From SAR202 cluster bacterium (GTDB lineage: Bacteria; Chloroflexota; Dehalococcoidia; Lucifugimonadales; UBA2985): 64,000 bases of DNA. The notes beneath the pieces are model-generated. The model ran no database searches, was not told the DNA's origin, and worked only from the letters and a program-made list of their open reading frames with translations. Positions within the stretch are counted from its first letter, which is position 1; each line of letters opens with the position of its first letter. This document shows, one piece after another, positions 709 through 11,878 of this stretch. The stretch spans positions 1 to 64,000 of the forward strand of contig VFHP01000007.1 in assembly GCA_009391535.1 (NCBI GenBank). Direction: 5' to 3'. Made by a program: the position numbers and the translations under genes.

Positions 709-738
709 TTGACACCTGGGCGATCCGGGCGGCCCCGG
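709..738 (+). repeat. GC-hairpin boundary element, copy 1 (loop CGGC)
   Basis: TTGACA (709-714), ten bases, then CCGGG-CGGC-CCCGG (725-738), followed by an A/T-rich tract with seven T. It sits between a finished gene and the promoter at 779 and could act as a terminator. It is the first of nine copies. Confidence 0.75.
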
Positions 739-778
739 AAAAACTTTGCTTTTTTTCTGGATTTTTAGCTAAAGCCTA

Positions 779-806
779 TTGACATTTCTGCCGATCTATG
801 TATAAT
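779..806 (+). promoter_or_regulatory. early-type promoter
   Basis: TTGACA 779-784, 16-nt spacer carrying GCCGATC, TATAAT 801-806. The upstream CTAAAGCC matches the family. It drives the small membrane gene at 845. Confidence 0.85.
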
Positions 807-844
807 AGAAGCATAACAAAAACACAACACAAAGGAAAATGAAA

Positions 845-952
845 ATGGCACAATTAGAAATTCTCTCGAAGATTATCGTTTCAACCGGCATTATTGTATC
901 AATCGCAACGCTTGGGGCACACATTATTTATTTCAATATTTTTGAAAAATAG
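845..952 (+). CDS. tiny membrane protein (35 aa)
   Basis: A 35-residue protein starting MAQLEILSK with one hydrophobic helix (about residues 9-29) and a short charged tail, so probably an inner-membrane peptide. An ATG two codons earlier (839) lies too close to the AAAGGA site; 845 has an 8-nt spacing. It is one of about a dozen tiny single-helix proteins in the window. Function unknown. Confidence 0.6.
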   Translation: MAQLEILSKIIVSTGIIVSIATLGAHIIYFNIFEK

Positions 953-965
953 TTCAAGATACCCC

Positions 966-994
966 TTGACTTTTGCCGATAGTTATAGTATAAT
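966..994 (+). promoter_or_regulatory. early-type promoter
   Basis: TTGACT 966-971, 17-nt spacer with GCCGATA, TATAAT 989-994, preceded by AAGATACCCC. It drives the gene at 1030. Confidence 0.88.
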
Positions 995-1029
995 AAGAAC
1001 ATAACAAAACAACACAAAGGAAAGTTAAA

Positions 1030-1338
1030 ATGAAAACTGAAGCTGTTAAAAATATCTTTAATTCTGAAAACTACGGCCTTGAAGATCATACCCTATGGGT
1101 TGATAAGATTAGCGAACTCGATCCAGATGGTAACGTAATGGTTACCAAGCTGATTGCTTACGTCGTTGATCCAATCGGCAACGCTATGGTTTTCAATTAT
1201 TCGCCATACGCTCCATTGAGCGAGCTTCTGAATTCGGCCAAGGTTTGGATTCAGTGCGGTTGCCCTAGCGATTGCGATGCTTCGGGCTTTCCCCGTAAAT
1301 GGGATGAAGCATCGTTGCACGCATGGGTAGCAGGATAA
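1030..1338 (+). CDS. hypothetical early protein (102 aa)
   Basis: Unrecognised 102-residue soluble protein with regular alternating hydrophobic residues (VMVTKLIAYVVDPIG) suggesting beta strands, and a C-terminal CGCPSDC cluster that could bind metal or form disulfides. A CAAAGGAAAG ribosome site lies 7 nt upstream. It is transcribed alone from the promoter at 966. Confidence 0.7.
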   Translation: MKTEAVKNIFNSENYGLEDHTLWVDKISELDPDGNVMVTKLIAYVVDPIGNAMVFNYSPYAPLSELLNSAKVWIQCGCPSDCDASGFPRKWDEASLHAWVAG

Positions 1339-1368
1339 AAAAACTTTGGGAATTATTAAAGATTCCCC

Positions 1369-1396
1369 TTGACAAATCCGATAAGTATATTATAAT
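1369..1396 (+). promoter_or_regulatory. early-type promoter
   Basis: TTGACA 1369-1374, 16-nt spacer with CCGATA, TATAAT 1391-1396, preceded by TAAAGATTCCCC. It drives the nuclease gene at 1440. Confidence 0.9.
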
Positions 1397-1439
1397 TAAG
1401 ACATAAGCAATTAAGCACAACACAAGCAAAGGTAAAAAA

Positions 1440-1964
1440 ATGAGCTACAACGAAATCACACTTGATCAGTTAATCGACGCAGAAGGACAAGAAGGAAACA
1501 AGTCGCTTTATGGGGATCATTGCCCATCCTCTTTCGCTGCGTCAAAGATGACTTCCACAAACCGAGGAACACGCATTGAAAGCGTAGTCTTCTCACACAT
1601 TAAAAATATGGGCTTTGAAGCAACTCAAACCGTTCATACGGGCGAGTGGGATATTACGGTTGAGCTTACAGACCGCCCTGTGAGAGTTGAGGTAAAATCG
1701 GCTTTGGTGACCAATAGCAATCAGACTAATAAACGGTTTTTCTTTATGGGAATATGTCCGGAATCGTTTGAGTATATTGTTTTCGCTTTTGTTCATCCGA
1801 CCGAGGGAATCATATTGAAATGGACAACTAGCGAAAGGTTCTGGGATCAGTGGGCTTCTAAACGAAAGGAAAGCCGCAAAGGGTACAATCTTCCCGTCCC
1901 TCTGGACTTGGTACACAAACACGTTGAGCTGTTTGACATGGAAGACTTCCCAGATGAGCTATAA
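1440..1964 (+). CDS. PD-(D/E)XK nuclease-fold protein
   Basis: A 174-residue protein. A Glu in GTRIESVVF (about residue 47), then GEWDI (about 70-74) and VEVKSA (about 86-91) reproduce the E...D-x(14)-E-x-K core of restriction-endonuclease-like nucleases, with the acid and Lys on adjacent strands as the family requires. Such proteins cut or nick DNA with Mg2+. An early gene of this type could degrade host DNA or act on host elements, but the target is not readable from sequence. It is a single-gene unit with its own strong promoter and AAAGG site. Family assignment is by motif only. Confidence 0.6.
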   Translation: MSYNEITLDQLIDAEGQEGNKSLYGDHCPSSFAASKMTSTNRGTRIESVVFSHIKNMGFEATQTVHTGEWDITVELTDRPVRVEVKSALVTNSNQTNKRFFFMGICPESFEYIVFAFVHPTEGIILKWTTSERFWDQWASKRKESRKGYNLPVPLDLVHKHVELFDMEDFPDEL

Positions 1965-2003
1965 AAAACTAGGAAAAAGTTTGTCTTTTTCAAACTTTCC
2001 CTA

Positions 2004-2033
2004 TTGACAGCCACCAGCTCCGGGGCCGCCCGG
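2004..2033 (+). repeat. GC-hairpin boundary element, copy 2 (loop GCCG)
   Basis: TTGACA 2004-2009, ten bases, CCGGG-GCCG-CCCGG 2020-2033. The 14-base core is the exact reverse complement of copy 1 while the left flank keeps the same orientation. Confidence 0.75.
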
Positions 2034-2127
2034 TCGGCAATTTTTGGCACGGTATTTGCTCTATGTTAATGTGTCATCATTTTGATTTTTGGTTACCTCG
2101 TATTATACTTGTATAGTAGCATTAGGA

Positions 2128-2161
2128 CAATTTGATAACAGGTTGTATCAATTTGATAACA
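2128..2161 (+). repeat. 13-bp direct repeat, two copies
   Basis: CAATTTGATAACA occurs at 2128-2140 and 2149-2161, a 21-bp period, i.e. two helical turns on the same DNA face. This suggests a pair of protein binding sites. Confidence 0.6.
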
Positions 2162-2171
2162 CTTTTCAAGC

Positions 2172-2194
2172 CATGCCAAAACCCATGCCAAAAC
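2172..2194 (+). repeat. CATGCCAAAAC direct repeats
   Basis: CATGCCAAAAC lies at 2172-2182 and 2184-2194. A third copy lies at 11893-11903 next to GC-hairpin copy 9, so the word recurs at another cassette boundary. Confidence 0.5.
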
Positions 2195-2277
2195 ACAAAA
2201 ATTTATTTATGTTCTGAAACCCCTTGTTTTACAGGCTAATAAAAGATTATTTTATTTTATTGGCTCAATCGGCACGT

Positions 2278-2305
2278 TTGGCACGGGTAATGCACTATAT
2301 ATACT
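2278..2305 (+). promoter_or_regulatory. variant promoter
   Basis: TTGGCA 2278-2283, 16-nt spacer, TATACT 2300-2305. It lacks the CCGATA motif; the -35 lies inside a GGCACG-TTT-GGCACG repeat. It is the likely promoter of the gene at 2332. Confidence 0.5.
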
Positions 2306-2331
2306 ATAGAAAGCAATCGAAAGGAAAGATT

Positions 2332-2544
2332 ATGAACTACCAACCTTATACAATCAGAATGACCAAAGATACGCCAACCGGCATGCGTTACCTAGTGCGA
2401 TGCAATCATACAAACAAGTGGGCAATCTGTAGTTGGGTAGGTTCAACCGGAGCTGCAATAGGCAATCCTGAGTGTCAGGGCAAATACGAATATGTCATGA
2501 AAAAGTGGCATAAACTTGTAGGAAAATACGTTCGGATGACCTAA
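2332..2544 (+). CDS. hypothetical early protein (70 aa)
   Basis: Unrecognised 70-residue basic protein (MNYQPYTIRMTKDT). It contains VRCNHTNKWAICSW and a later ECQG, so three Cys plus a His that might bind zinc. The ATG at 2332 is chosen because a TCGAAAGGAAAGATT ribosome site precedes it; upstream in-frame codons have none. Confidence 0.65.
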   Translation: MNYQPYTIRMTKDTPTGMRYLVRCNHTNKWAICSWVGSTGAAIGNPECQGKYEYVMKKWHKLVGKYVRMT

Positions 2545-2600
2545 CGTGTCACGCCCATAGACGATAATAATAATATAAGAAATCAACGAAAGGAAAGATT

Positions 2601-2813
2601 ATGACTAAAAAAGATAAGCCCGAACAGGGAAAACAGTATTTGTTAATCGGTGGCTCTGACAAGCCAAGCATTGCAAACGGCAATAGCTGGAAAGAATCGG
2701 AAGTCAAAGAGATCCCAATTCATGAACAATTCGGAATGACTGTCGATGAATGGAACGCTTCCCAATCGGCTTGGGATGTGTTGCACGACATGCACGGATT
2801 AGGCGGGTTCTAA
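2601..2813 (+). CDS. hypothetical early protein (70 aa)
   Basis: Unrecognised 70-residue soluble protein, acidic at its centre, no Cys. The start has the canonical early ribosome site ACGAAAGGAAAGATT. The upstream 60 bases contain ACGATA and an AT-rich -10-like TATAAG but no clear -35, so it may be co-transcribed with the gene at 2332. Confidence 0.65.
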   Translation: MTKKDKPEQGKQYLLIGGSDKPSIANGNSWKESEVKEIPIHEQFGMTVDEWNASQSAWDVLHDMHGLGGF

Positions 2814-2850
2814 AAACTGGGAAAAACTTGTCTTTTTCAAACTTTCCCTA

Positions 2851-2885
2851 TTGACAGTGAGTCGATCCGGGCGGCCCCGGCCGGG
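2851..2885 (+). repeat. GC-hairpin boundary element, copy 3 (loop CGGC)
   Basis: TTGACA 2851-2856, ten bases, CCGGG-CGGC-CCCGG 2867-2880, then a third CCGGG arm (2881-2885) and two T-runs. Arm 2 can pair with arm 1 or arm 3. Terminator-like. Confidence 0.78.
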
Positions 2886-2924
2886 ATTTTTTGCCTTTTT
2901 TTTGAGATTTTCTAAAGATTGCCC

Positions 2925-2953
2925 TTGACAGTGGCCGATATATATGATAGACT
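2925..2953 (+). promoter_or_regulatory. early-type promoter (weaker -10)
   Basis: TTGACA 2925-2930, 17-nt spacer with GCCGATA, TAGACT 2948-2953, preceded by CTAAAGATTGCCC. It drives the tiny membrane gene at 2980. Confidence 0.75.
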
Positions 2954-2979
2954 TAAGAAGTTAACACGAAAGGAAAGCT

Positions 2980-3096
2980 ATGAGTTTTGAGTGGATGATT
3001 GAAAACGAAGAATTGATGATGTTCGTAATTGTTCCGGCGTTGTTGATTCCAGTCGGCTGGGTTGTCACAAAAATATTAAATTATTATGAGAATTAG
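2980..3096 (+). CDS. tiny membrane protein (38 aa)
   Basis: A 38-residue protein (MSFEWMIENEELMM...) with one hydrophobic segment at about residues 13-31 and an acidic N-terminus, predicted single-pass. The start follows ACGAAAGGAAAGCT. It has its own promoter. Function unknown. Confidence 0.6.
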   Translation: MSFEWMIENEELMMFVIVPALLIPVGWVVTKILNYYEN

Positions 3097-3108
3097 TTAA
3101 GATTGCTA

Positions 3109-3137
3109 TTGACAAGTGCCGATAATTATGGTATAAT
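3109..3137 (+). promoter_or_regulatory. early-type promoter
   Basis: TTGACA 3109-3114, 17-nt spacer with GCCGATA, TATAAT 3132-3137. It lies 13 bases after the preceding stop and drives the gene at 3163. Confidence 0.88.
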
Positions 3138-3162
3138 GATAAACATAACGAAAGGAAAGAAA

Positions 3163-3318
3163 ATGAAAACGAAAGAACTAAAATCACTGTTGTGGGAAGT
3201 ATGGCACAAGGCTAAGGAAGCCGGAGCATCAAGGGCAGCCACAAACGCTATTATTGACGCTATGGTTGTCATAGACAAAGAAGCAAAAAAGTCGGAAAAA
3301 GTTTCTGAAACCCCTTGA
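3163..3318 (+). CDS. hypothetical small helical protein (51 aa)
   Basis: A 51-residue Lys/Ala-rich, probably all-helical protein (MKTKELKSLLWEVWHKAK). The start is set at 3163 because it follows ACGAAAGGAAAGAAA and lies downstream of the promoter; longer readings would begin upstream of the -10. Its TGA stop lies inside the -35 hexamer of the next promoter. Confidence 0.65.
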   Translation: MKTKELKSLLWEVWHKAKEAGASRAATNAIIDAMVVIDKEAKKSEKVSETP

Positions 3319-3343
3319 CAAATACAATTTCATAAAGTAAAAT
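3315..3343 (+). promoter_or_regulatory. promoter overlapping a stop codon
   Basis: TTGACA 3315-3320, 17-nt spacer, TAAAAT 3338-3343. No CCGATA motif. The hexamer contains the stop of the preceding gene. It drives 3377-4358. Confidence 0.65.
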
Positions 3344-3376
3344 TTAGATATACAAAACACACTCGAAAGGAAAACT

Positions 3377-3811
3377 ATGCTAGACTCAACTAAACCTTAC
3401 TGCGGATTCAACAACATCGACGAACTCAATGCACACGTTGAAGGCGTGTTCGCTGAGTGCATCGAAGTTCCTAACGATTTGCTGCCTGAAAAGTATCACG
3501 ACAAGATTCGTGGTGGTCGTACGCTTGCACGCTTGAATGAATTGATTGCGGAAGAAGAAGAAACCGAAACCGCACACCAAAAAGCGAAAGCGGCAAAAGC
3601 TCGCAACATCGAAAAGCTGAGAAAGCAATTCGAGGAAAAAGCAATTTACACCACGCATAAAGGCGGTACGGATTTCGTCGATATGGAAAGTGGTTTTGAC
3701 TATGGCGAAAACGAAGCCGATGAAATTCAGCTTGCCAAAAACGAATACGCTTTTGTTCGTGGTATGGTTAACGGTGGACTGATTGAATGGGATGACTTGG
3801 AGACCGAATAA
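3377..3811 (+). CDS. hypothetical charged coiled-coil protein (144 aa)
   Basis: Unrecognised 144-residue acidic protein. A long Glu/Lys/Ala-rich stretch (about residues 53-95, EEEETETAHQKAKAAKARN) predicts a coiled coil, flanked by an N-terminal NNIDELNAHVEGVFAE helix and an acidic C-terminus. Ribosome site TCGAAAGGAAAACT. It is first in a run of four or five overlapping genes. Confidence 0.7.
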   Translation: MLDSTKPYCGFNNIDELNAHVEGVFAECIEVPNDLLPEKYHDKIRGGRTLARLNELIAEEEETETAHQKAKAAKARNIEKLRKQFEEKAIYTTHKGGTDFVDMESGFDYGENEADEIQLAKNEYAFVRGMVNGGLIEWDDLETE

Positions 3812-4110
3812 TGAATGATGGAATTTTGCCCCCGATGGGCGTTTGTATGGTTACACTTTGCAGGATATTGAAACCGTCGAACTGGCAACAGTGCGAGTGG
3901 TTTGGAGAAACCCCTGAAGGTGGAGCGATTAGTTCTATGAAGGTCGCTGTACCTACTGAGGTACTTGACGAAGCTGTAGCCGCTGGCAATTTAGATTTGC
4001 TTGAACTATGGGTAGAAGATGAATTTGGTTTTCCGTGGGTACTTGCTCACGGTGAAGATATGAGTTTTATGAGTACCGAACAATATCACGAATGGAGTAC
4101 AGAACTATGA
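3811..4110 (+). CDS. hypothetical protein (99 aa)
   Basis: Unrecognised 99-residue protein, Trp-rich and acidic at the C-terminus (LWVEDEFGFPW). Its ATG overlaps the previous TAA by one base (TAATG), so it is translationally coupled to the coiled-coil gene upstream. Confidence 0.65.
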   Translation: MNDGILPPMGVCMVTLCRILKPSNWQQCEWFGETPEGGAISSMKVAVPTEVLDEAVAAGNLDLLELWVEDEFGFPWVLAHGEDMSFMSTEQYHEWSTEL

Positions 4111-4190
4111 ACGAAGAACAGAAGCAAGCAATTATATTTTGCACGATTGCATTTATTGCCGGTTGTATTATATCGGGGTTGATACTATGA
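4107..4190 (+). CDS. tiny membrane protein (27 aa)
   Basis: A 27-residue peptide: a polar seven-residue start (MNEEQKQ), then one hydrophobic helix to the C-terminus. ATGA overlaps at both ends link it to its neighbours. Too short for homology; supported by coupling and composition. Confidence 0.5.
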   Translation: MNEEQKQAIIFCTIAFIAGCIISGLIL

Positions 4191-4354
4191 GAATGAGAAG
4201 GACACACGCCAATGAGTTGGCACGTTATTGTCAACGATTAGAAAATATTGAAAAAAGGAGATTGGAAAATGAACGACAGGCTAAAGTCAATTTTGTGGTT
4301 CGCATGTTCCGCCGGTTGGGTATCCTTCGCGGTGTTCGTGATGTCTCACTATAA
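4187..4354 (+). CDS. hypothetical Arg-rich protein (55 aa)
   Basis: A 55-residue strongly basic protein (MRMRRTHANELARYC) with a helical Arg/Glu-rich core that might bind nucleic acid. ATGA coupling to the membrane peptide fixes the start. Its 3-prime half overlaps, in another frame, a further tiny membrane-protein gene. Confidence 0.5.
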   Translation: MRMRRTHANELARYCQRLENIEKRRLENERQAKVNFVVRMFRRLGILRGVRDVSL

Positions 4355-4358
4355 ATAG
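4269..4358 (+). CDS. tiny membrane protein overlapping in another frame (29 aa)
   Basis: A 29-residue peptide (MNDRLKSILWFACSAG...) with one hydrophobic helix, read entirely within the Arg-rich gene in a different frame. A good AAAAAAGGAG ribosome site lies 8-9 nt upstream, and its composition matches the other tiny membrane proteins nearby. Moderate confidence that both frames are used. Confidence 0.4.
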   Translation: MNDRLKSILWFACSAGWVSFAVFVMSHYK

Positions 4359-4440
4359 ATGGTAAGGTCAACTCGTCGGTAAAGCGTGTGAGGGTGAGAC
4401 GAGACGCCTCCAGCCGTACCCGCCATCTATGTATTATCCA
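4355..4440 (+). ncRNA. putative small structured RNA
   Basis: An 8-bp closing stem ATAGATGG (4355-4362) with CCATCTAT (4433-4440) encloses about 70 bases containing CTCGTC/GACGAG. It lies at the end of the 3377 transcript. It could be a 3-prime UTR structure; no known family recognised. Confidence 0.35.
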
Positions 4441-4451
4441 AACCAAAGGGG

Positions 4452-4486
4452 TTGACACCGGGACGATCCGGGGCCGCCCGGCCGGG
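4452..4486 (+). repeat. GC-hairpin boundary element, copy 4 (loop GCCG)
   Basis: TTGACA 4452-4457, ten bases, CCGGG-GCCG-CCCGG 4468-4481, a third CCGGG-type arm, then seven T. It would work as an intrinsic terminator. Confidence 0.78.
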
Positions 4487-4524
4487 TTTTTTTGCTTTTT
4501 TTTGGTTTTTTGTTAAGTTTGCTA

Positions 4525-4553
4525 TTGACTCCTGCCGATATATATAGTATAAA
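4525..4553 (+). promoter_or_regulatory. early-type promoter
   Basis: TTGACT 4525-4530, 17-nt spacer with GCCGATA, TATAAA 4548-4553. The ribosome site AAAGGAGGAAG begins at the -10, so the transcript leader is very short. It drives the 22-aa gene at 4567. Confidence 0.8.
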
Positions 4554-4566
4554 GGAGGAAGTTGAT

Positions 4567-4635
4567 ATGACGTTTTTTATTTTACTGGTTTGTGCGTGTC
4601 TCGTTGGTCTTCTGGGTGCAGAAGTTTTATCGTAA
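4567..4635 (+). CDS. tiny membrane peptide (22 aa)
   Basis: A 22-residue, almost wholly hydrophobic peptide starting MTFFILLVCACLVG. A near-perfect Shine-Dalgarno (AAAGGAGG) and a dedicated promoter support expression despite the size. Transcription would start close to the ATG, so the ribosome site may be partly lost from the RNA. Confidence 0.45.
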   Translation: MTFFILLVCACLVGLLGAEVLS

Positions 4636-4651
4636 AATTTCCAAATACCCC

Positions 4652-4680
4652 TTGACAAGATCAACTCTTTATGATATAAT
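4652..4680 (+). promoter_or_regulatory. promoter for a probable leaderless gene
   Basis: TTGACA 4652-4657, 17-nt spacer lacking CCGATA, TATAAT 4675-4680. The ATG at 4687 is seven bases after the -10. Confidence 0.85.
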
Positions 4681-4686
4681 TAAATC

Positions 4687-4899
4687 ATGTTAGCAATGAC
4701 ATCAGTCGTTGCGGTTCCCTGTCGCCTTTGTAAAGAGGTGACGGATCTCACGGTTAACATCGAGGGATTCGTTGCTTGGCAAGGCGGCAAGTTGATCCAA
4801 GATGCTCTCCCCGAGCTTTCAGCGGATCAACGCGAGCTTCTCATCTCTGGCACTTGTGACAAGTGCTGGAATGAGTTGTTCGGCTCCGACGAGGAGTAG
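4687..4899 (+). CDS. small zinc-binding protein (70 aa), probably leaderless
   Basis: A 70-residue protein with CRLC near residues 12-15 and CDKC near 56-59, a spacing suited to a two-ended zinc knuckle. The first ATG lies where transcription should begin, so the mRNA would have no leader; the alternative ATG at 4696 also lacks a ribosome site. It is followed by a terminator hairpin. Function unknown. Confidence 0.6.
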   Translation: MLAMTSVVAVPCRLCKEVTDLTVNIEGFVAWQGGKLIQDALPELSADQRELLISGTCDKCWNELFGSDEE

Positions 4900-4931
4900 A
4901 ACCGCTTGACCGTCCCCTTCGGGGTGTGGAG

Positions 4932-4983
4932 TTTGGTAAGCTCTGTCGCAATCACTCAATTACCAAAAAGTTTCTTTTTTTTC
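4932..4983 (+). terminator. intrinsic terminator
   Basis: TTTGGTAA (4932-4939) pairs with TTACCAAA (4960-4967), followed by a T-rich tract to 4983. It ends the 4687 transcript. Confidence 0.7.
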
Positions 4984-4994
4984 TCAAGAACCCC

Positions 4995-5022
4995 TTGACA
5001 ACTGGCCGATATTAGTTATAAT
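4995..5022 (+). promoter_or_regulatory. early-type promoter
   Basis: TTGACA 4995-5000, 16-nt spacer with GCCGATA, TATAAT 5017-5022, preceded by CAAGAACCCC. It drives 5062-5732. Confidence 0.9.
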
Positions 5023-5061
5023 AGAGGCATACAACACATCACTCTTTGAAAGGTTTTCAAC

Positions 5062-5451
5062 ATGACCAAGTTCGACACACAAATCCACTGCGAAGAAATC
5101 ACCTCTTACGAGCCGACTGCGGCTGATTGGGCTGAGTACCACGAGTGGCTCGACTCACAAGAGGCATCAGAGCCTCTGCCGGAGCCGGAGGATTTCCAAC
5201 TGTCCGCACCCGAAGGGTGGGAAGATGACACCGATGATTCTATCGGTGAACTCGACACCACCGACGAGTACGAGTGGACGGAGGAAGCCATCGCGTGGGA
5301 AGAAGGTATGCGATCCGATAACCTCTACGACGATGAGGATTTCGCCTGCGTTGGCGACAATGAACTATATGACGATCCGTACAACGGCGAGCCGTTCGAG
5401 GATACTTACAACGATTACGACGCATGGGAGGCGTACTGCGATTATGAGTAG
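5062..5451 (+). CDS. highly acidic protein, possible DNA mimic (129 aa)
   Basis: A 129-residue protein dominated by Asp, Glu, Tyr and Trp with almost no Lys or Arg; acidic and aromatic residues alternate through the second half. Such composition is known from phage DNA-mimic inhibitors of restriction, H-NS or defence proteins, but also from unrelated acidic proteins, so a mimic role is inference. Ribosome site TGAAAGGTTTTCAAC. It is first in a three-gene run with overlaps. Confidence 0.65.
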   Translation: MTKFDTQIHCEEITSYEPTAADWAEYHEWLDSQEASEPLPEPEDFQLSAPEGWEDDTDDSIGELDTTDEYEWTEEAIAWEEGMRSDNLYDDEDFACVGDNELYDDPYNGEPFEDTYNDYDAWEAYCDYE

Positions 5452-5572
5452 TGAGATGGTTGTATTTTGGAATTGGGCGATTGTCGCCGCTGTTACATTT
5501 CCTGTTTTGTTAGGTCTTTATGATGAGTGGAGTTATGAGCGATCCAAGAGATTACCAAGAGCCAGAAAGTGA
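5444..5572 (+). CDS. small membrane protein (42 aa)
   Basis: A 42-residue protein (MSSEMVVFWNWAIVAA) with an N-terminal membrane helix (about 5-24) and a basic tail ending RSKRLPRARK, predicted single-pass. It overlaps the acidic gene by eight bases and the next gene by about 50 in another frame. GGGAGGC upstream may serve as its ribosome site. Confidence 0.45.
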   Translation: MSSEMVVFWNWAIVAAVTFPVLLGLYDEWSYERSKRLPRARK

Positions 5573-5732: not shown

Positions 5733-5740
5733 AATAGGGG

Positions 5741-5775
5741 TTGACAAACCGGCGAGCCGGGGCCGCCCGGCCGGG
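5741..5775 (+). repeat. GC-hairpin boundary element, copy 5 (loop GCCG)
   Basis: TTGACA 5741-5746, ten bases, CCGGG-GCCG-CCCGG 5757-5770, third arm CCGGG and five T. AATAGGGG precedes the TTGACA, as in copies 6 and 9. Confidence 0.78.
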
Positions 5776-5851
5776 TTTTTGTCAATAGGAAAAACGGAAA
5801 AAAGGTGAAAAAAGTTTTCTGGTTTTTTCTGGAATTTTATTCAAGATCCCC

Positions 5852-5879
5852 TTGACATTTGGTCGATGTATATTATAAT
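5852..5879 (+). promoter_or_regulatory. early-type promoter of a non-coding transcript
   Basis: TTGACA 5852-5857, 16-nt spacer with GTCGATG, TATAAT 5874-5879. No ORF with a ribosome site follows; it drives the structured RNA below. Confidence 0.85.
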
Positions 5880-5885
5880 GGAGGA

Positions 5886-6236: not shown

Positions 6237-6242
6237 AAAGAC

Positions 6243-6687: not shown

Positions 6688-6693
6688 GGTAGT

Positions 6694-6790: not shown

Positions 6791-6813
6791 TTTTTTTTGA
6801 AAGGAGAAGTCTT

Positions 6814-7047: not shown

Positions 7048-7213
7048 CTCACAAACGCCGTTATGCAGGATCGGCACCAAATTCCCTGCTGGCACGGTCG
7101 TAGCCATTAAGAACGATCACGTTTTAATCGACACTGCGGATGGTGTCAAACAATTTTCTTTTTCACAAGTTGAAAGGTTCATCCATGAACAACGATCTTT
7201 ATCACAAGCGTAA
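7025..7213 (+). CDS. hypothetical small beta protein (62 aa)
   Basis: A 62-residue protein with a beta-rich core (TVVAIKNDHVLIDTADGVKQ), resembling a small SH3-like barrel in pattern only. It starts inside the end of the previous gene, an overlap of 23 bases. Confidence 0.5.
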   Translation: MENQRVSNSQTPLCRIGTKFPAGTVVAIKNDHVLIDTADGVKQFSFSQVERFIHEQRSLSQA

Positions 7214-7388
7214 CGAACGCAAAGTTTCTTTCCTGTATCCCAAAAACGGGAGTAAGAATATCCTCCGCTCAGTAACCGGCGTAAAGGTTGCGAGCTTCAC
7301 CGGGCCAAATGGCCGTGGGATTACCGTCCGAGAGGACAACGGCTTGCACAAGTCGTTCTCACTGAAAAAGTGCGTGGCGTCACTCTAA
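7185..7388 (+). CDS. hypothetical basic protein (67 aa)
   Basis: A 67-residue basic protein (MNNDLYHKRNERKVSFLY) with strand-like repeats (GVKVASFTGPNGRGITVRED). ATG 7185 follows GAAAGGTTCATCC; the upstream in-frame TTG does not have a site. Its pattern resembles the previous gene product, so the two may be paralogues. Confidence 0.6.
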   Translation: MNNDLYHKRNERKVSFLYPKNGSKNILRSVTGVKVASFTGPNGRGITVREDNGLHKSFSLKKCVASL

Positions 7389-7408
7389 AACCGCCGACCT
7401 TTCGTGTT

Positions 7409-7456
7409 GTGGGGAGAATGCCGCCTGTGACGTTCAGGCGGCTTCTCTTTCCCCAC
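7409..7456 (+). terminator. strong intrinsic terminator-like hairpin
   Basis: GTGGGG pairs with CCCCAC (7451-7456) and the inner GCCGCCTG with CAGGCGGC. It is followed by an A-rich rather than T-rich tract, so it may be a stabilising 3-prime end or act on the opposite strand. Confidence 0.6.
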
Positions 7457-7476
7457 GAAAAAAATAAAAATAGGGG

Positions 7477-7511
7477 TTGACAAACCGGCGAGCCGGGCCC
7501 CCCCGGCCGGG
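7477..7511 (+). repeat. GC-hairpin boundary element, copy 6 (loop CCCC)
   Basis: TTGACA 7477-7482, ten bases (identical to copy 5), CCGGG-CCCC-CCCGG 7493-7506, third arm CCGGG. No T-run follows, so it is a poor terminator. Confidence 0.75.
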
Positions 7512-7588
7512 TCAAAAGTCAAGTCCAATCGGCAAAAAACAGGAAAAAAACAATGAAAAAAAACTTTGGAAAAATGCTAAAGTTCCCC

Positions 7589-7616
7589 TTGACAAATAGC
7601 CGATATAATATATAAT
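7589..7616 (+). promoter_or_regulatory. early-type promoter of the tmRNA-like RNA
   Basis: TTGACA 7589-7594, 16-nt spacer with GCCGATA, TATAAT 7611-7616, preceded by CTAAAGTTCCCC. Transcription would begin about 8 bases before the RNA at 7631. Confidence 0.88.
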
Positions 7617-7630
7617 AGAGTAAACAACAT

Positions 7631-7785
7631 GGCGGGAAAATGGTCTCGTAGGATGAGACACCGACGACATGATAGTTCGACAACTGGCCTAATCGACGGA
7701 TTGGGAGGGAATCGACGGGGCTATCTCAGGCCTTATCGAGTTGGTGCCTACGAGTGCGGGGTTCGAGTCCCCGTTCCCGTCGCCA
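7631..7785 (+). ncRNA. tmRNA-like / tRNA-like RNA with encoded CCA
   Basis: The ends pair as an acceptor: GGCGGGAA (7631-7638) with TTCCCGTC (7774-7781), then G and CCA. A perfect T-arm CGGGG-TTCGAGT-CCCCG (7757-7773) precedes it. After the acceptor, AATGGTCTCG resembles the D-like segment of the tmRNA at 20076. The contiguous strand 7740-7754 pairs with 7645-7652 plus 7659-7665 (15 bp with a 6-base bulge), like tmRNA helix P2. Inside, one frame ends ...RQLA-stop (TAA 7690-7692), a possible but non-canonical tag. At 155 nt it is too long for a tRNA and very short for a tmRNA. Confidence 0.6.
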
Positions 7786-7817
7786 AAAAATAACCGGAAT
7801 TATTCAAGTTTGACCCC

Positions 7818-7845
7818 TTGACATTCCGATAATATATAGTAGAAT
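7818..7845 (+). promoter_or_regulatory. early-type promoter
   Basis: TTGACA 7818-7823, 16-nt spacer with CCGATA, TAGAAT 7840-7845. It drives 7879-9016. Confidence 0.82.
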
Positions 7846-7878
7846 AAGACTGTAAGCAACACAACGAAAGGTAAACAG

Positions 7879-8661
7879 ATGTTAAAGTTCTCAAACGCAA
7901 ACGCTAAAATCGAAGCACTCAAAAACGACGACGAGTTGTCAGAGTATCTGACAGATAAACGCAAGGTTTATTCCCTTGACCTTCTCAGTGGCTACTCATG
8001 CCCGTTCGCAGAGTCGTGCCTATCCAAAGCCGTAGTTCAGCCAAACGGCAAACGCAAAATACAAGACGGACACAAAACGCAGTTCCGTTGCTTCTCAGCT
8101 TCTCAGGAAGTACAGTACACCAACGTGTACAATCTACGCAAACACAATTTTGATTCGTTGCGTAAACTATCAACCGGCGAGATGATTGACTTAATCAATA
8201 ACTCATTACCCACCAATGCCGGTATCGTTCGCATCCACGTTGCAGGCGATTTCTTCAATCAGCAATATATGGAAGCGTGGTATTCTGTAGCAGTGGCAAA
8301 CCCCGACAAGCTATTCTACGCTTATACCAAGTCGCTCAGGTTCTGGCACTCTATCAACGAGTTTCCAATTCTACACAATTTCGTTTTGACCGCATCATAT
8401 GGCGGTCGTGATGATTGGCGTATCGACGAGTACGATATGCGATTCGCCAAAGTGGTATACAGTGAACAAGAGGCTCACGATCTCGGACTAGCTATCGACC
8501 ACGACGACACACACGCAGCAAAGCCAAGCCTACGCAATCAATCATTTGCATTGATGCTACACGGAACACAGCCCAAAGGTAGCGAAGCCGCCGATGCCTT
8601 AAAGGTGCTGAAACGGGACAAGGTGCGGCATAGCTATAGCAGAAAGGTGGCAACAGTGTGA
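7879..8661 (+). CDS. GP88-like phage protein
   Basis: A 260-residue protein. Its layout, an N-terminal SNANAKI segment, then YSLDLLSGYSCPFAESC (about residues 31-47), FRCFSA (71-76) and conserved RIHVAGDFF and Y-T-K-S segments, matches what I recall of the gene product 88 family of actinobacteriophages. The Cys residues (SCPFAESC, RC) may bind a metal. Biochemical function is unknown in the family as far as I know. Strong ACGAAAGGTAAACAG ribosome site; first gene of its unit. Confidence 0.65.
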   Translation: MLKFSNANAKIEALKNDDELSEYLTDKRKVYSLDLLSGYSCPFAESCLSKAVVQPNGKRKIQDGHKTQFRCFSASQEVQYTNVYNLRKHNFDSLRKLSTGEMIDLINNSLPTNAGIVRIHVAGDFFNQQYMEAWYSVAVANPDKLFYAYTKSLRFWHSINEFPILHNFVLTASYGGRDDWRIDEYDMRFAKVVYSEQEAHDLGLAIDHDDTHAAKPSLRNQSFALMLHGTQPKGSEAADALKVLKRDKVRHSYSRKVATV

Positions 8662-8735
8662 TTCAACTTGTATTGTTACTTTTATTTTTTTCAGCAGCTC
8701 ATGGTATTTCAGACCACTACACAAAAGGATATTGA
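8658..8735 (+). CDS. possible tiny exported or membrane peptide (25 aa)
   Basis: A GTG start overlapping the previous TGA (GTGA) opens a 25-residue reading with a leucine-rich helix and an AAHG motif that looks like a signal-peptide end. No separate ribosome site, so it would depend on coupling. Weakly supported. Confidence 0.35.
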   Translation: MIQLVLLLLFFSAAHGISDHYTKGY

Positions 8736-8737
8736 TT

Positions 8738-9016
8738 ATGAAAAGTCTAGTTATGTTCAGTTACAAGCAACCGGTTGAAGGTTCTAAGTTTCGTTGGGGA
8801 GTTCTTAAGGAACGACGCAACACCAACAAGCACCCGCTTAGTTGGGAGACAATCACGGGAGCGTATCGTAAATACGATCCTGAATTCAAACGGTCGCGAG
8901 ACCTTGACACGGTGCAAACCCGTGACGGTGTAAAGGCGTTCTATAAAGAGCGTCAGAATTGGGGAATTAAAATTCCTTTCGTTGGTTCCCTAGTCGCACC
9001 GTTCCTAAAGTCGTAG
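8738..9016 (+). CDS. hypothetical basic protein (92 aa)
   Basis: A 92-residue basic protein (MKSLVMFSYKQPVEG) with KFRWGVLKERRNTNKHP and later REDxK-like patches. ATG 8738 follows AAAAGGATATTGATT. No recognised domain. It ends the GP88 unit before the hairpins at 9032-9135. Confidence 0.6.
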   Translation: MKSLVMFSYKQPVEGSKFRWGVLKERRNTNKHPLSWETITGAYRKYDPEFKRSRDLDTVQTRDGVKAFYKERQNWGIKIPFVGSLVAPFLKS

Positions 9017-9031
9017 GACGCTATGACCCGC

Positions 9032-9135
9032 ACCACTGACCTTGCGGTATAGGTGGTGAGGATAAAAGGTAACCGCTATTTTTTATTTTTTTTATATACG
9101 CCGCTGCCGGTTGGGGTAGTCTCAGCCGGTGGCGG
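9032..9135 (+). other. two intergenic hairpins
   Basis: CACCAC pairs with GTGGTG (about 9032-9059), followed by a T-rich tract near 9080-9093 that could terminate transcription. CCGCTGCCGG (9101-9110) pairs with CCGGTGGCGG (9126-9135) as a second GC-rich hairpin immediately before repeat copy 7. Confidence 0.45.
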
Positions 9136-9157
9136 TGTCTTACTCATTCCAGCCGGA

Positions 9158-9189
9158 TTGACGCGGCGGGCAAATCCGGGCGGCCCCGG
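9158..9189 (+). repeat. GC-hairpin boundary element, copy 7 (loop CGGC)
   Basis: TTGACG 9158-9163, twelve bases, CCGGG-CGGC-CCCGG 9176-9189. It is a divergent copy in both hexamer and spacing. Confidence 0.68.
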
Positions 9190-9259
9190 TTTGGTTGTTG
9201 AGACTGGTTCTCAGTAAAAAAAGATTAGAAAAAAGCCAGAAAAAGTTAATGCCGACCCC

Positions 9260-9287
9260 TTGACTATGACGATATATATAATATAAT
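9260..9287 (+). promoter_or_regulatory. early-type promoter
   Basis: TTGACT 9260-9265, 16-nt spacer with ACGATA, TATAAT 9282-9287. It drives the gene at 9314. Confidence 0.85.
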
Positions 9288-9313
9288 GGAAGGGTAACAC
9301 GAAAGGATAAGTT

Positions 9314-9781
9314 ATGAAGAAACCACGAACACAAAAAAGCTTCCAGATTGCGGAGCATATCGACCCAACCAAGAAGGTGCGAGTCTATCGCAACCTGCAT
9401 CGAGATTGCTACAGCGTTAAGCAAGGCGGCATCGTTCGCTGTCATGCAGAAAATGTTACGTTGAGAAGTTGTCAATTCATTGTGTCCAAGGCAGGACAAA
9501 GGAGAGTCAGGGATGAACAGAAGAAAAACGTACATGCGTTTATTGAGGGCTATGTGGTTGATACTCGTACGACCGACCAAAAAGTTGACGGTCATCTCAC
9601 TGATGAGCAGATCGACAACGGCGAAACACGATGGGAAAAAGTTTACTACAACCCATACACCTGTGACACGTTCATCAAGCAGTACGACGCAAGCCCAATA
9701 GAAAACGCTGACTATGCTGACTTGTCAATCCTCGACAATGCAGTAATGGCCTTCAGTCATAAACCACCATTTTTTCATTAG
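9314..9781 (+). CDS. conserved phage protein of unknown function (155 aa)
   Basis: A 155-residue protein of a type I remember from many environmental phages: a YRNLHRDCYSV segment (about 26-36), VRCHAENVTLRSCQFIV (40-56), GQRRVRDEQKKNVHAFIEG (60-78) and a C-terminal YNPYTCDTF motif. No function is known to me. ACGAAAGGATAAGTT ribosome site. Its stop runs into the next promoter region. Confidence 0.65.
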   Translation: MKKPRTQKSFQIAEHIDPTKKVRVYRNLHRDCYSVKQGGIVRCHAENVTLRSCQFIVSKAGQRRVRDEQKKNVHAFIEGYVVDTRTTDQKVDGHLTDEQIDNGETRWEKVYYNPYTCDTFIKQYDASPIENADYADLSILDNAVMAFSHKPPFFH

Positions 9782-9786
9782 ACCAC

Positions 9787-9814
9787 TTGACATACAATAA
9801 TTGTATGTTAGAAT
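9787..9814 (+). promoter_or_regulatory. promoter with palindromic operator in the spacer
   Basis: TTGACA 9787-9792, 16-nt spacer, TAGAAT 9809-9814. The spacer lacks the CCGATA motif and is instead a 19-base perfect palindrome, ACATACAATAATTGTATGT (9790-9808). Confidence 0.8.
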
Positions 9815-9853
9815 ATACAGTATAACCAACACTACTTTTTGAAAGGTAAAATT

Positions 9854-10225
9854 ATGGGACTTGACCAATACGCATCCGCACGACGTGGCGAAGCTAAGAA
9901 GGACGAAGATGGCTACACTTACTACGAGGACAGTATGGAACTGGCCTACTGGCGAAAGCACCCTAGTTTGCAGGGGTGGATGGAAGAACTCTACCGTGAA
10001 AAGGGTGGAGATGGTGAGTTTAATTGTGTCGATGTCGAATTGACACTTGGGGACTTGGACAGCATGGAAGAAGCTCTGGACGAAAACGCCCTACCAGAGA
10101 CAGTAGGTTTCTTCTTCGGGGAAAACTCTGAAGAATATTACGCAGAGCAAGACCGTGAGTTCATCCGTGAGGCTCGTGCGGCAATTAAGAAAGGCTATAC
10201 CGTTGTGTATAGTAGCTGGTGGTAA
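9854..10225 (+). CDS. conserved phage protein, MGLDQYA family (123 aa)
   Basis: A 123-residue acidic protein with MGLDQYA at the N-terminus, LAYWRKHPSLQGWMEELY (about residues 31-48), FNCVDVELT, GFFFG and a terminal YSSWW. These blocks recur in many phage proteins of unknown function as I recall them. The start is placed at 9854 after GAAAGGTAAAATT. It is the only early gene here under a clear palindromic operator. Confidence 0.7.
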   Translation: MGLDQYASARRGEAKKDEDGYTYYEDSMELAYWRKHPSLQGWMEELYREKGGDGEFNCVDVELTLGDLDSMEEALDENALPETVGFFFGENSEEYYAEQDREFIREARAAIKKGYTVVYSSWW

Positions 10226-10226
10226 C

Positions 10227-10457
10227 GTGGACAAAGTAGGAAGCGTTGTTAGATTTAACAACTTTGTAAGAAAAATTATTCGTGAAGAAGGCACTTGCAA
10301 ACTGGCGGAGCAAACGAACGACCGCATCGCTTGCTTTGAAGTTGCTTCTGGTGGTGGGGTGAAGGGGTTTGTAGGATGGTGGGAAGATGACCATTCACAG
10401 ATGACCTATGCCGCTACACCTTACGAAGTATATTGTACAATGCCTCACGAGGATTAG
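10227..10457 (+). CDS. hypothetical protein (76 aa), GTG start
   Basis: A 76-residue protein starting VDKVGSVVRF. GTG lies one base past the previous TAA, so translation is probably coupled. The C-terminal half has strand-like FVGWWEDDHSQMTY. No recognised domain. Confidence 0.5.
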   Translation: MDKVGSVVRFNNFVRKIIREEGTCKLAEQTNDRIACFEVASGGGVKGFVGWWEDDHSQMTYAATPYEVYCTMPHED

Positions 10458-10475
10458 TATTCCTTTCAAGAGATG

Positions 10476-10603
10476 CCGGTTGACCTTTATGTTGGTTGCC
10501 TGCCCGCCGTCTTACGCTAACAACGGTAACTGTAAGATGAGAAGAGGGCGACGGGGTAACAGGATTCAAATAGATCTCTCATCGCCAACATGAGGGTCGC
10601 CGG
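10476..10603 (+). ncRNA. putative structured RNA in the 3-prime region
   Basis: The outer strands pair imperfectly over about 19 bases: CCGG, GACC and ATGTTGG (10476-10495) with CCAACAT, GGGTC and CCGG (10585-10603). An inner hairpin TCTTAC/GTAAGA spans 10510-10537. No ORF lies within. It sits between the 9854 unit and GC-hairpin copy 8; a processed 3-prime RNA is one possibility. Confidence 0.42.
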
Positions 10604-10635
10604 TTGACCTTGGAATCCGGGCCCCCCCGGCCGGG
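10604..10635 (+). repeat. GC-hairpin boundary element, copy 8 (loop CCCC)
   Basis: TTGACC 10604-10609, seven bases, CCGGG-CCCC-CCCGG 10617-10630, third arm CCGGG. It is divergent in hexamer and spacing; no long T-run follows. Confidence 0.68.
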
Positions 10636-10714
10636 TCGTTTGTCAAGAGGGAAAATGCTAAAAAAGCCAAAAAAGTCCGGAATAAAAAAAATCCAAAAAA
10701 AGCTCAAGTCCCCA

Positions 10715-10742
10715 TTGACATCTAGCCGATATATATTATAAT
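10715..10742 (+). promoter_or_regulatory. early-type promoter
   Basis: TTGACA 10715-10720, 16-nt spacer with GCCGATA, TATAAT 10737-10742, preceded by CTCAAGTCCCCA. It drives the DUF932 gene. Confidence 0.9.
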
Positions 10743-10784
10743 GAGAGAGTAAGTTAGTTTCACACATTTCAGAAAGGTTTTACT

Positions 10785-11702
10785 ATGACTAACATTCAAT
10801 CTGCTGACGTTTCAGCTTCCGTTCGTTCCGCTTTCGATTTCACCGTTGACAAGTTTCCACTGTTTGGCCCGGATCATATGCCGACTGACCAGTACGGCTT
10901 GTTCCGTTCTGATACGGGTTATCTCAAGGGCGTGAAGTCCGTTTCCCCTCGCTACGTTCCCCATACGACTGATGACGTTTGTGCGTTGGTCGATGCCGCT
11001 GGTGAGGCGTTCGATGGTGAGATTGCTTGCAATACTCACTTCCGTAGTGGTCACTATGTGTCCATTCAACCAACCGCTGAAGATCGTCGTTCGATTTTCA
11101 AGGATCGTGATACGGATAACGTATGGCCTCGCGTGATGATTAACGCTGGTTATGACGGTAAAGCGTTTACCGCCACTATGGGTTATTTCCGTGATGCGTG
11201 TAGTAATCTGGCGATGATGCGTATGGTGAACGGTACAACCGTTTCCATTCGTCACACTTCCGGATTGCGTGCCAACATGGACGAATTGATCTCAACATTT
11301 GAGACCCTCAAAAATAGCTGGTCTACCCTGACCGATGTTATTGACCGTCTCGAATCTACTGAGGTTCGCATGACTGAGTTTCTCGATTCTATCTATGGTC
11401 GTCCTGATCAGGATCAACTGGATCGTGCAGCCCGTGGCGAGCGAGTGCGTGCGGTGACTACTCACCAAAATCGTACTGAGGCAATCTGGAAGCGTCTTAA
11501 TCGTGAGCGTAACCTGACAGGTCGTCCAGCGATGACCAATGTGGTTTCCGCTTGGGAAGCATACAACGCTATTCAGGGCTACGTCCAACACGACGCACAG
11601 GCGAAGGAGGGTTTCAAGGGTGACTTTGATCGAATCCTGCGTGCATCCAACTCGCAAGAGGTCAAGGCGGCTGAGAAGCTCGCTTTGGAACTTGCGGCCT
11701 AA
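10785..11702 (+). CDS. DUF932 family protein
   Basis: A 305-residue protein with the DUF932 (phage/plasmid-like TIGR03299) pattern: a central conserved stretch with MINAGYDGKAFTATMGYFRDACSN (about 125-148) and MRMVNGTTVSIRHTSG, and a C-terminal WEAYNAIQGYVQHD block. The family is widespread on phages and plasmids with no proven function known to me. Codon use is richer in GGT/CGT/CGC than neighbouring genes, suggesting high expression or separate origin. Ribosome site AGAAAGGTTTTACT; followed by an intrinsic terminator. Confidence 0.8.
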   Translation: MTNIQSADVSASVRSAFDFTVDKFPLFGPDHMPTDQYGLFRSDTGYLKGVKSVSPRYVPHTTDDVCALVDAAGEAFDGEIACNTHFRSGHYVSIQPTAEDRRSIFKDRDTDNVWPRVMINAGYDGKAFTATMGYFRDACSNLAMMRMVNGTTVSIRHTSGLRANMDELISTFETLKNSWSTLTDVIDRLESTEVRMTEFLDSIYGRPDQDQLDRAARGERVRAVTTHQNRTEAIWKRLNRERNLTGRPAMTNVVSAWEAYNAIQGYVQHDAQAKEGFKGDFDRILRASNSQEVKAAEKLALELAA

Positions 11703-11724
11703 CCTTACCCCTTTCTGTTGTGTT

Positions 11725-11758
11725 ACCCCTTGCGGCCATTTGGCCGCTTGGGGTTTTT
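11725..11758 (+). terminator. intrinsic terminator
   Basis: ACCCC-TT-GCGGCC pairs with GGCCGC-TT-GGGGT around an ATTT loop, then TTTT. It terminates the DUF932 transcript. Confidence 0.85.
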
Positions 11759-11848
11759 ATAACTTCAGTGGGATGGTAGGGTATGATACAGCTAATTTTG
11801 ATGGTGATTTTTTTCTGGTCTATTTCCTGTTTTTTTGAAGAATAGGGG

Positions 11849-11878
11849 TTGACACCGGCTGCGGCCGGGCCCCCCCGG
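11849..11878 (+). repeat. GC-hairpin boundary element, copy 9 (loop CCCC)
   Basis: TTGACA 11849-11854, ten bases, CCGGG-CCCC-CCCGG 11865-11878, preceded by AATAGGGG. It follows a conventional terminator at 11725, so termination cannot be its only role. Confidence 0.75.

Follow-up and report, generated by a model that had tools for sequence, protein, structure and literature searches.

What do repeated GC-rich palindromes do when they stand, one after another, at the ends of small gene units in a phage? The question is raised by a 64,000-nt stretch (the window; positions 1 to 64,000 of contig VFHP01000007.1, assembly GCA_009391535.1, filed under a SAR202 cluster bacterium), which comes from a large tailed phage and carries nine copies of such an element in one block of small genes, between 0.7 and 11.9 kb. 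Large phages keep small early-gene blocks that change quickly between relatives; to our knowledge, little has been established about how such blocks are regulated and exchanged outside the T4-like model phages. With a little less than even confidence, we read the nine copies as the boundary elements of an early-gene cassette array and as a divergent form of a widespread bipartite phage element that would act on promoters. The element is probably both a protein-binding control site for the promoter of the next unit and a joint at which units have been rearranged.

The first-pass annotation, made from the window's letters alone, had described nine copies of TTGACA-N10-CCGGG-N4-CCCGG, and a sequence scan recovered all of them where it had placed them:

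709..738, + strand: copy 1, TTGACA-N10-CCGGG-CGGC-CCCGG, followed by an A/T hairpin with a T-run at 735-760
2004..2033, + strand: copy 2, loop GCCG; left flank (CTTTTTCAAACTTTCCCTATTGACA) similar to the right flank of copy 5 when the latter is reverse-complemented; close downstream, a strong promoter is lacking
2851..2885, + strand: copy 3, loop CGGC; third arm at 2881-2885, then ATTTTTT; left flank as in copy 2
4452..4486, + strand: copy 4, loop GCCG; third arm at 4482-4486, then TTTTTTT
5741..5785, + strand: copy 5, loop GCCG; third arm at 5771-5775; T-run; outer right arm TGTCAA at 5780-5785
7477..7522, + strand: copy 6, loop CCCC; third arm at 7507-7511; GTCAA on the right; preceded by a separate canonical terminator at 7420-7442
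9158..9189, + strand: copy 7, TTGACG-N12-core, loop CGGC
10604..10646, + strand: copy 8, TTGACC-N7-core, loop CCCC; third arm at 10631-10635; TGTCAA on the right at 10641-10646
11849..11878, + strand: copy 9, loop CCCC; separate hairpin with T-run upstream at 11727-11758 (by eye)

Every copy sits after a gene unit. The CCGGG and CCCGG arms are perfect in all nine copies, which fall within 725-11878. As annotated, the loops form three classes with three copies each, namely CGGC (copies 1, 3 and 7), GCCG (copies 2, 4 and 5) and CCCC (copies 6, 8 and 9), and the first two cores, CCGGGCGGCCCCGG and CCGGGGCCGCCCGG, are exact reverse complements inside flanks of the same orientation. The third CCGGG arm is likewise present in five copies (3, 4, 5, 6 and 8). 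The left part, TTGACA with a spacer of 10, holds for seven of the nine copies and not for copy 7 (TTGACG, spacer 12) or copy 8 (TTGACC, spacer 7). Two features go beyond the first-pass annotation. Copies 5, 6 and 8 display an outer inverted repeat, with TTGACA or TTGACC to the left and TGTCAA or GTCAA to the right of the core, and the right flank of copy 5, when reverse-complemented, gives the left flank of copies 2 and 3. This makes the element almost symmetric, and TTGACA is more plausibly an outer arm than the -35 box of a promoter; the near-symmetry also fits a core that occurs in either orientation within one flank. A promoter at TTGACA was rejected, in agreement with the first-pass annotation, as there is no -10 box at the right distance and the hexamer has an inverted partner in three copies.

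The core CCGGGNNNNCCCGG occurs nine times in the window compared with zero times in 100 dinucleotide shuffles, and nine times in the whole 152,655-nt contig (C7), that is, never beyond the block. The motif is thus not one that recurs at chance frequency through the genome, the outcome that the first-pass annotation had named as speaking against it. The same contig, a phage contig of 152.7 kb, was binned within a 1.36-Mb bacterial bin, in which CCGGGNNNNCCCGG again gave nine matches and the pattern read backwards gave none. An IMG/VR record, 3300030329_003696 (166,833 nt), represents the same phage and contains the identical nine copies. A scan of IMG/VR for TTGACA-N7-12-core returned 63 stretches, four of them in this record, and no other contig had more than two matches. 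Among the contigs scanned, the repeated form of the core belongs to the window phage.

The boundaries themselves are shared more widely than the core. Relatives (L numbers denote loci, G numbers whole records) were retrieved through two genes of the block, with three loci found by the search with the first and 14 by the search with the second:

7879..8661, + strand: GP88-family gene (Pfam PF17338), part of the unit flanked by copies 6 and 7
10785..11702, + strand: DUF932 gene (Pfam PF06067), itself the unit flanked by copies 8 and 9

Two of these loci, L073 and L086, are the window phage itself, whose whole record is G001, and no other GP88 or DUF932 locus contained the exact core. L087, L133, L123, L074, L076/L077, L078, L079 and L082 were compared with the window gap by gap. 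Their gaps hold a GC-rich palindrome or block. In most cases, this is accompanied by one or two imperfect palindromes of the form TAAGTCSTT-N7-AASGACTTA, which are often enclosed by TTGACG...CGTCAA ends. Where the window has copies 1 and 4-9, the relatives carry either a GC core with TTGACA/TGTCAA ends or one or two TAAGTC-type palindromes; for the gap of copy 2, there was no relative to compare. Several gaps present hybrids of the two forms. At the copy-4 gap, L123 and L133 combine a window-like left part (GGGGTTGACA or GGGCTTGACA) with a GC palindrome and a right palindrome, and L133, L123 and L087 all have a GC core with a TAAGTC or TAAACC palindrome on its right. In L133, a left palindrome is followed by a core ending close to that of the window at both the copy-1 gap (GCCCGGCCGGGTTTTTT) and the copy-5 gap (GCCCGGCCGAGATTTTTT). 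At the copy-8 gap, L087 retains both outer ends with a different core and L076/L077 have the left TAAGTC-type palindrome only; at the copy-7 gap, L087 has a GC block without palindromes; and at the copy-9 gap, L077 and L079 have a TTGACG-TAAGTG palindrome and a GC core. The hybrids in L123 and L133 demonstrate that the two forms, that of the window and the bipartite one, occupy equivalent places. The first-pass annotation had expected that relatives with the same gene order but without the element would argue against it. The exact element is indeed absent from the relatives, yet another palindromic element stands at most of the same gaps.

In its common form, the element of this wider family consists of two imperfect 25-bp palindromes around a GC-rich core, with a mean core GC content of 78% compared with 41.5% in the flanks. 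When IMG/VR was scanned for one palindrome variant, at least 120 stretches matched. In loci L074-L168, some of which overlap in contig, a simple scorer counted 646 palindrome units in 0.89 Mb, compared with 18 in Markov-simulated sequence. At least one palindrome pair was present in 143 of the 230 phage contigs examined, and 500 of the 515 pairs were spaced by 41-53 nt. This spacing is near-constant within a phage and differs among phages (53, 52, 50, 49, 45 or 42/41 nt): it is 42 nt in 13 of 13 pairs in L149, 53 nt in 7 of 7 in L084 and 50 nt in 7 of 7 in L145. The cores between such constantly spaced palindromes vary in sequence within one phage. A tighter pattern matched in 15 of 17 whole records, the two without a match being G001, the window phage, and G004. 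In records with several matches, those listed lie in one region each, at two contig ends in G010. The orientations of the flanking genes (53 ++, 51 +-, 49 -- and 39 -+) were set aside, as the caller of open reading frames accepts spurious antisense frames.

Dispersed palindromes of this kind might also be mobile, MITE- or REP/BIME-like repeats that have spread between units and are tolerated there. Such a spread would fit the many dispersed symmetric copies, the inverted flank of copies 2 and 3, and a palindrome that is present or absent at orthologous gaps (L076 compared with L087 and the window). It is at odds with the confinement of the listed matches to one region, the constant spacing around divergent cores in one phage, the phasing with promoters described below and the lack of a Y1 transposase match (RAYT/TnpA, PF01797) in all 24 phage records searched. 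We therefore consider mobile repeats improbable.

If, instead, the element acts on the next promoter, its distance from that promoter should matter. The distances from the downstream palindrome to the next -35 box peak at about 20, 31, 41 and 52 nt. In a discovery set of 110 de-duplicated flanks, from which L080, L075, L094, L167 and L156 had been removed as same-contig or near copies by eye, the Rayleigh R was 0.278 at 10.5 nt (p 2e-4), and the best of the scanned periods was 10.75. A held-out test (V-test, period 10.5, phase 41.5) was written down before new contigs were fetched. With L287, L305 and L377 excluded for contigs shared with the discovery set, it gave p = 1.7e-4 for 124 distinct flanks from 70 loci, and p = 2.4e-4 (122 flanks, 66 contigs) when L340 and L332, which share contigs with that set too, were removed as well. 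These flanks pool two retrieval patterns, of which the one named in advance gave p = 0.011 by itself (69 flanks) and the second alone p = 0.004 (53 flanks); with one element per held-out contig, the median p was 9e-5 (n = 105). In the pooled 236 flanks, a period of 10.5 leads (R 0.269, compared with 0.246 at 12). These tests drew on loci other than L169-L208 and L409-L443, and since the phages share ancestry, all phasing p-values are to be taken as guides. Constant placement on one face of the helix is what would be expected of a protein that binds there and acts on a promoter close by. The idea of binding sites, one of those raised in the first-pass annotation, is therefore supported for the wider family and not for the window's own form.

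In the window, eight of the nine copies are followed by a sigma70-like promoter or promoter-like site, as had been annotated. From the core end to the next -35 box, the distances are 40, 44, 43, 81, 82, 70, 84 and 79 nt for copy 1 and copies 3-9, respectively. Copy 2 is followed only by weaker matches, the best of which (10/12, TTGGCA at 2278) is 244 nt away.

779..806, + strand: sigma70-type promoter after copy 1, from the promoter scan; CGAT in the spacer
2925..2953, + strand: promoter after copy 3, from the promoter scan; CGAT in the spacer
4525..4553, + strand: promoter-like TTGACT-N17-TATAAA after copy 4, by eye; the scan rule gives only a 9/12 match there
5852..5879, + strand: promoter after copy 5, from the promoter scan; CGAT in the spacer
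7589..7616, + strand: promoter after copy 6, from the promoter scan; CGAT in the spacer
9260..9287, + strand: promoter after copy 7, from the promoter scan; CGAT in the spacer
10715..10742, + strand: promoter after copy 8, from the promoter scan; CGAT in the spacer
11958..11985, + strand: promoter-like site after copy 9, from the promoter scan, 10/12

CGAT, often as GCCGATA, lies between the -35 and -10 boxes in 17 of 21 early promoters in 1-20 kb (window 779-17501) and is also visible in promoters of many related loci. This motif may be the site of a second regulator or a part of the promoter.

The palindromes could in principle work as DNA or as RNA. Over the 858 distinct units, symmetry at the four variable inner positions falls below the level predicted by independence (ratios 0.81-0.95), arms of the ACC class meet each other 3 times compared with 21 expected, and A-C mismatches outnumber G-U pairs on the transcribed strand (526 to 285); as the retrieval patterns favour some arm combinations, these counts are indicative and the size of the effect is uncertain. 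A positive signal of pairing covariation between the arms was found in neither set. Half-sites without base-pair covariation indicate that the palindromes act as DNA and not as RNA. An RNA hairpin formed by the TAAGTC palindromes was accordingly rejected, because changes in one arm are not matched in the opposite arm. A described RNA family was rejected as well, as no Rfam match covers the element: 10 loci gave only tRNA and tmRNA matches at the gathering score, and window positions 1-14000 gave two sub-threshold matches, neither of them on a core.

The second side of the proposed role concerns gene order. When an element lay between two neighbouring genes, these were still adjacent in the other phage in 136 of 297 comparisons, compared with 1056 of 1335 without an element; for gaps of at least 120 nt, adjacency was kept in 124 of 283 cases with and 138 of 214 without an element, the comparisons not being independent of each other. 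The set comprised 67 sequences, which either had three units or more or were hand-picked; it took in genes that have a relative in another phage and elements lying outside such genes, and the pattern missed some elements of L087. Adjacency thus breaks more often at elements, which bears out the first-pass annotation in its claim that the copies mark cassette boundaries. Units of orthologous early genes can be recognized, such as the GP88 gene with the next gene or the group at 6243-7388. Their order also changes: the group at 3377-4354 precedes that at 4567-5732 in the window, and the two are reversed in L087, L133 and L123. The units may be moved as wholes because each of them ends in an element and starts with its own promoter.

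Exchange extends further than this block. The phage of record G005 (to which L133 and L079 belong) is a mosaic with respect to the window phage, with a median identity of matched proteins of 81-82% in its 120-138.5 kb stretch, 61% in its first 10 kb, where early genes lie, and 73.5% in 100-110 kb. The remaining 10-kb stretches have 25-54%, and its terminase is 65% identical. Exchange therefore includes the early block and is not limited to it.

Rearrangement at the elements could also result from their being site-specific recombination sites that shuffle early cassettes, with tyrosine-recombinase-like 9-bp arms and a 7-nt centre, perhaps served by a host enzyme. The arm-7-arm anatomy, the loops in both orientations and the more frequent adjacency breaks at elements are all in line with this. 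Moreover, contigs of bacterial genomes contain the family's palindrome in 45 stretches, some of which look like phage contigs, and in 15 of 18 such loci, chosen by eye from the 45, it lies 0-6 nt from the 3' end of a tRNA gene, once overlapping it. The form TAAGTCCTT-N7-AAVGACTTACG stands beside a tRNA 3' end in L209, L217, L219, L220, L224, L233, L234, L236, L241, L242, L244-L247 and L250, in genomes of Planctomycetota and Spirochaetota, and is not so placed in L213, L222 and L226. A position directly beside tRNA genes is typical of integrase sites, and one guess is that these bacterial palindromes are such sites. Yet the tyrosine, serine and Y1 families (PF00589 Phage_integrase, Resolvase and PF01797) had no match in any of the 24 phage records, several of which may be fragments; as controls, Phage_integrase and Resolvase matched in 14 and 10 of 14 genomes, respectively. 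Arms of the kind found at tyrosine-recombinase core sites (inverted, 6-8 nt centre) occur in the relatives and are absent from the window copies, and recombination sites would not predict the promoter phasing. Since no recombinase was matched in 24 of 24 records, homology-based exchange is more likely than site-specific shuffling. Recombination sites, also proposed in the first-pass annotation, thus find no enzyme in these records, and the bacterial tRNA-adjacent palindromes keep the idea alive; for the phage elements, we regard it as very unlikely.

The GC-rich hairpins may appear, at first sight, to be ordinary intrinsic terminators corresponding to the stem-loop half of the promoter-early stem-loops (PeSLs) of T4-like phages, in which case the variation of the palindromes would reflect terminator turnover. 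Each copy lies at the 3' end of a unit, and three of the nine window cores (copies 4, 5 and 7) pass a scan for intrinsic terminators. In copy 3, the third arm is followed by ATTTTTT, copy 1 has a second hairpin with a T-run, and L133 carries GCCCGGCCGGGTTTTTT and GCCCGGCCGAGATTTTTT at the gaps of copies 1 and 5. Copies 1, 2, 6, 8 and 9, by contrast, have no T-run directly after the core or the third arm, and separate terminators precede copy 6 (listed by the scan) and copy 9 (by eye, as the first-pass annotation had also noted). In the wider family, a canonical terminator is found inside 1 of 107 double elements and within 200 nt downstream in 3 of 107, compared with 15 of 107 within 200 nt upstream (14 of them at 23-39 nt; random stretches, 27 of 550). 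Folding likewise gives little indication of terminators, as family cores fold no better than shuffled ones (mean -7.76 compared with -7.85 kcal/mol, 469 distinct cores), with perfect arms of at least 6 bp somewhat more common than in shuffles (77 of the 469 cores, 46 expected). Nor would terminators predict phasing with the promoter. Judged by these sequence features, termination may be one role of the window cores, where the earlier suggestion of terminators holds for three of nine copies, and it does not seem to be the conserved role of the wider family. As an explanation of the element as a whole, we consider it unlikely, though the most plausible of the alternatives.

We are thus led back to a control site at a unit boundary, for which the following mechanism appears most likely. 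A protein, of the phage or of the host, would bind the paired half-sites as double-stranded DNA. The downstream palindrome tends to lie on one helix face relative to the next sigma70-type promoter, and the bound protein would act on this adjacent early promoter. The GC-rich block would mark where the upstream unit ends and would help to stop its transcripts if followed by a T-run. Recombination between elements or between promoters would then move units whole.

Several observations weigh against this reading. Under the strictest thinning of the held-out set (one element per contig and distinct flanks), the median p was 0.02 (n = 66; below 0.05 in 74% of draws), and a period of 12 fits the held-out flanks as well as 10.5 (R 0.236 compared with 0.228). 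The spacing of the pairs does not always equal whole helical turns, as 45 and 48-51 nt also occur. The unstructured cores and the tRNA-adjacent bacterial palindromes described above belong here, too, as does the copy-3 gap of L133, where the two gene groups follow on each other with no element between them. A search for the regulator by presence and absence started from 199 G005 proteins, of which 90 had no match in the window phage; among the 14 of these that are shared with G002 or G003, there was no convincing DNA-binding protein. In the window phage itself, no TAAGTC palindrome of the searched form was found, apart from one weak asymmetric match at C7:115237, and its own eight distances, too few for such a test, display no clear phasing (V = 0.23, p = 0.18). 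The regulatory reading is therefore carried over from the relatives. The window phage appears to have lost the paired, phased palindromes, and its form of the element would have kept the boundary function despite this loss.

Elements of comparable position have reportedly been described as PeSLs in T4-like phages by Arbiol et al. in 2010 and Comeau et al. in 2014. The PeSL seems to be the closest described kind, from which the bipartite, phased form differs. PeSLs, on which two citing papers also touch (PMC4503421, PMC3950731), reportedly combine a stem-loop with a strong early promoter of the sigma70-like type; they lie among small accessory genes in variable regions and have been linked to the shuffling of units among related phages. 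The window array fits this in position, promoter and link to shuffling, and the listed relatives are block-like as well. Unlike PeSLs, the wider family has two extra palindromes with a phage-specific fixed spacing, phased with the promoter, as well as a GC-rich core that folds no better than random, and most copies are not canonical terminators. Two further kinds appear to be looser analogues. The extended start-associated sequences (ESAS) of cluster K mycobacteriophages, whose function was unclear to the authors of PMC3203893, are 17-bp imperfect inverted repeats. Their spacer measures 4-13 bp, and they are linked to a 13-bp sequence found at start codons. They resemble the present element as repeated imperfect inverted repeats upstream of non-structural genes whose consensus varies by phage subgroup. 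In the present element, the sites instead lie on either side of a GC block, at the ends of units and ahead of sigma70 promoters. In the parts consulted of PMC8707807 and PMC3950731, the intergenic repeats of halovirus HF2 carry the promoter themselves, and those of HGTV-1 are promoter-associated, with an inverted repeat likened to PeSLs. These, too, are promoter-associated repeats between gene units, but they belong to archaeal viruses, and here the promoter is separate and at phased distances. In the open-access literature, searched with general terms only, no description of the element was found, which is weak evidence of novelty; a text search for the letters of the palindrome gave no phage paper by title among the matches listed. 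More guardedly, we propose that these elements might form a new class of phage control element, with paired palindromes round a GC block, a phage-specific spacing and one helix face per early promoter, that would define an early regulon of exchangeable units in many uncultured phages; the window phage would represent a lineage that is losing the paired sites yet keeping the boundary.

Further features of the phage were recorded alongside. The window encodes relatives of rIIA and rIIB, a ribonucleotide reductase, a DnaB-like helicase, UvdE, GP88 and DUF932; parts of a DNA polymerase lie further along the contig, and a terminase gene lies beyond the left end of the window, in the IMG/VR record. 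Bearing on a possible T4-like affinity are the rIIA, rIIB, ribonucleotide reductase and DnaB-like matches, together with a terminase that matches general PHROG terminase families. For rIIA, there are 2863 matching records among annotated phages, all below 60% identity. A blast of the early DNA against annotated and cultured phages and a search with a 111-nt element gave no match, nor did the TAAGTC pattern match anywhere in the 1.36-Mb bin that holds C7. A tmRNA-like gene (19973-20289, tag GVENYAMAA, starred by ARAGORN) lies among genes for tRNA-Glu, Ile, Arg and Leu. Beside the early block, on the opposite strand, L444:3196-4507 encodes a conserved protein that looks sigma-like by eye and has no PHROG match, as well as a weak match to a D5-like regulator family (phrog_323); the sigma-like protein and the D5-like match are both present in 5 of 5 phages compared. 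The D5-like protein was rejected as the partner of the TAAGTC sites, as it also occurs in the window phage and so does not track them.

Within the block, a sigma54-like word, TTGGCAY-N5-TTGC, stands next to the GC core that follows the DUF932 gene (about 11878-11900, reverse strand) and again at 2044 (+ strand). It recurs at the same gap in L076-L079, L081-L083 and L087, with only two matches in 152 kb of C7. Three promoter-driven stretches lack an obvious gene (window 5880-6200, 6690-6810 and 7620-7785) and are possible non-coding RNAs; the last ends in a tRNA-like GGTTCGAGTCCC...CGCCA, for which ARAGORN made no call. Just past the cassette block, at window 12072-12843, there are four copies of a 50-nt repeat with ATAG(T/C)CAGC.

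Should the phased bipartite element prove to be a genuine control site, early transcription in many uncultured phages may be under the command of a single protein. The elements would then also serve as ready marks that divide early blocks into units of transcription and exchange.

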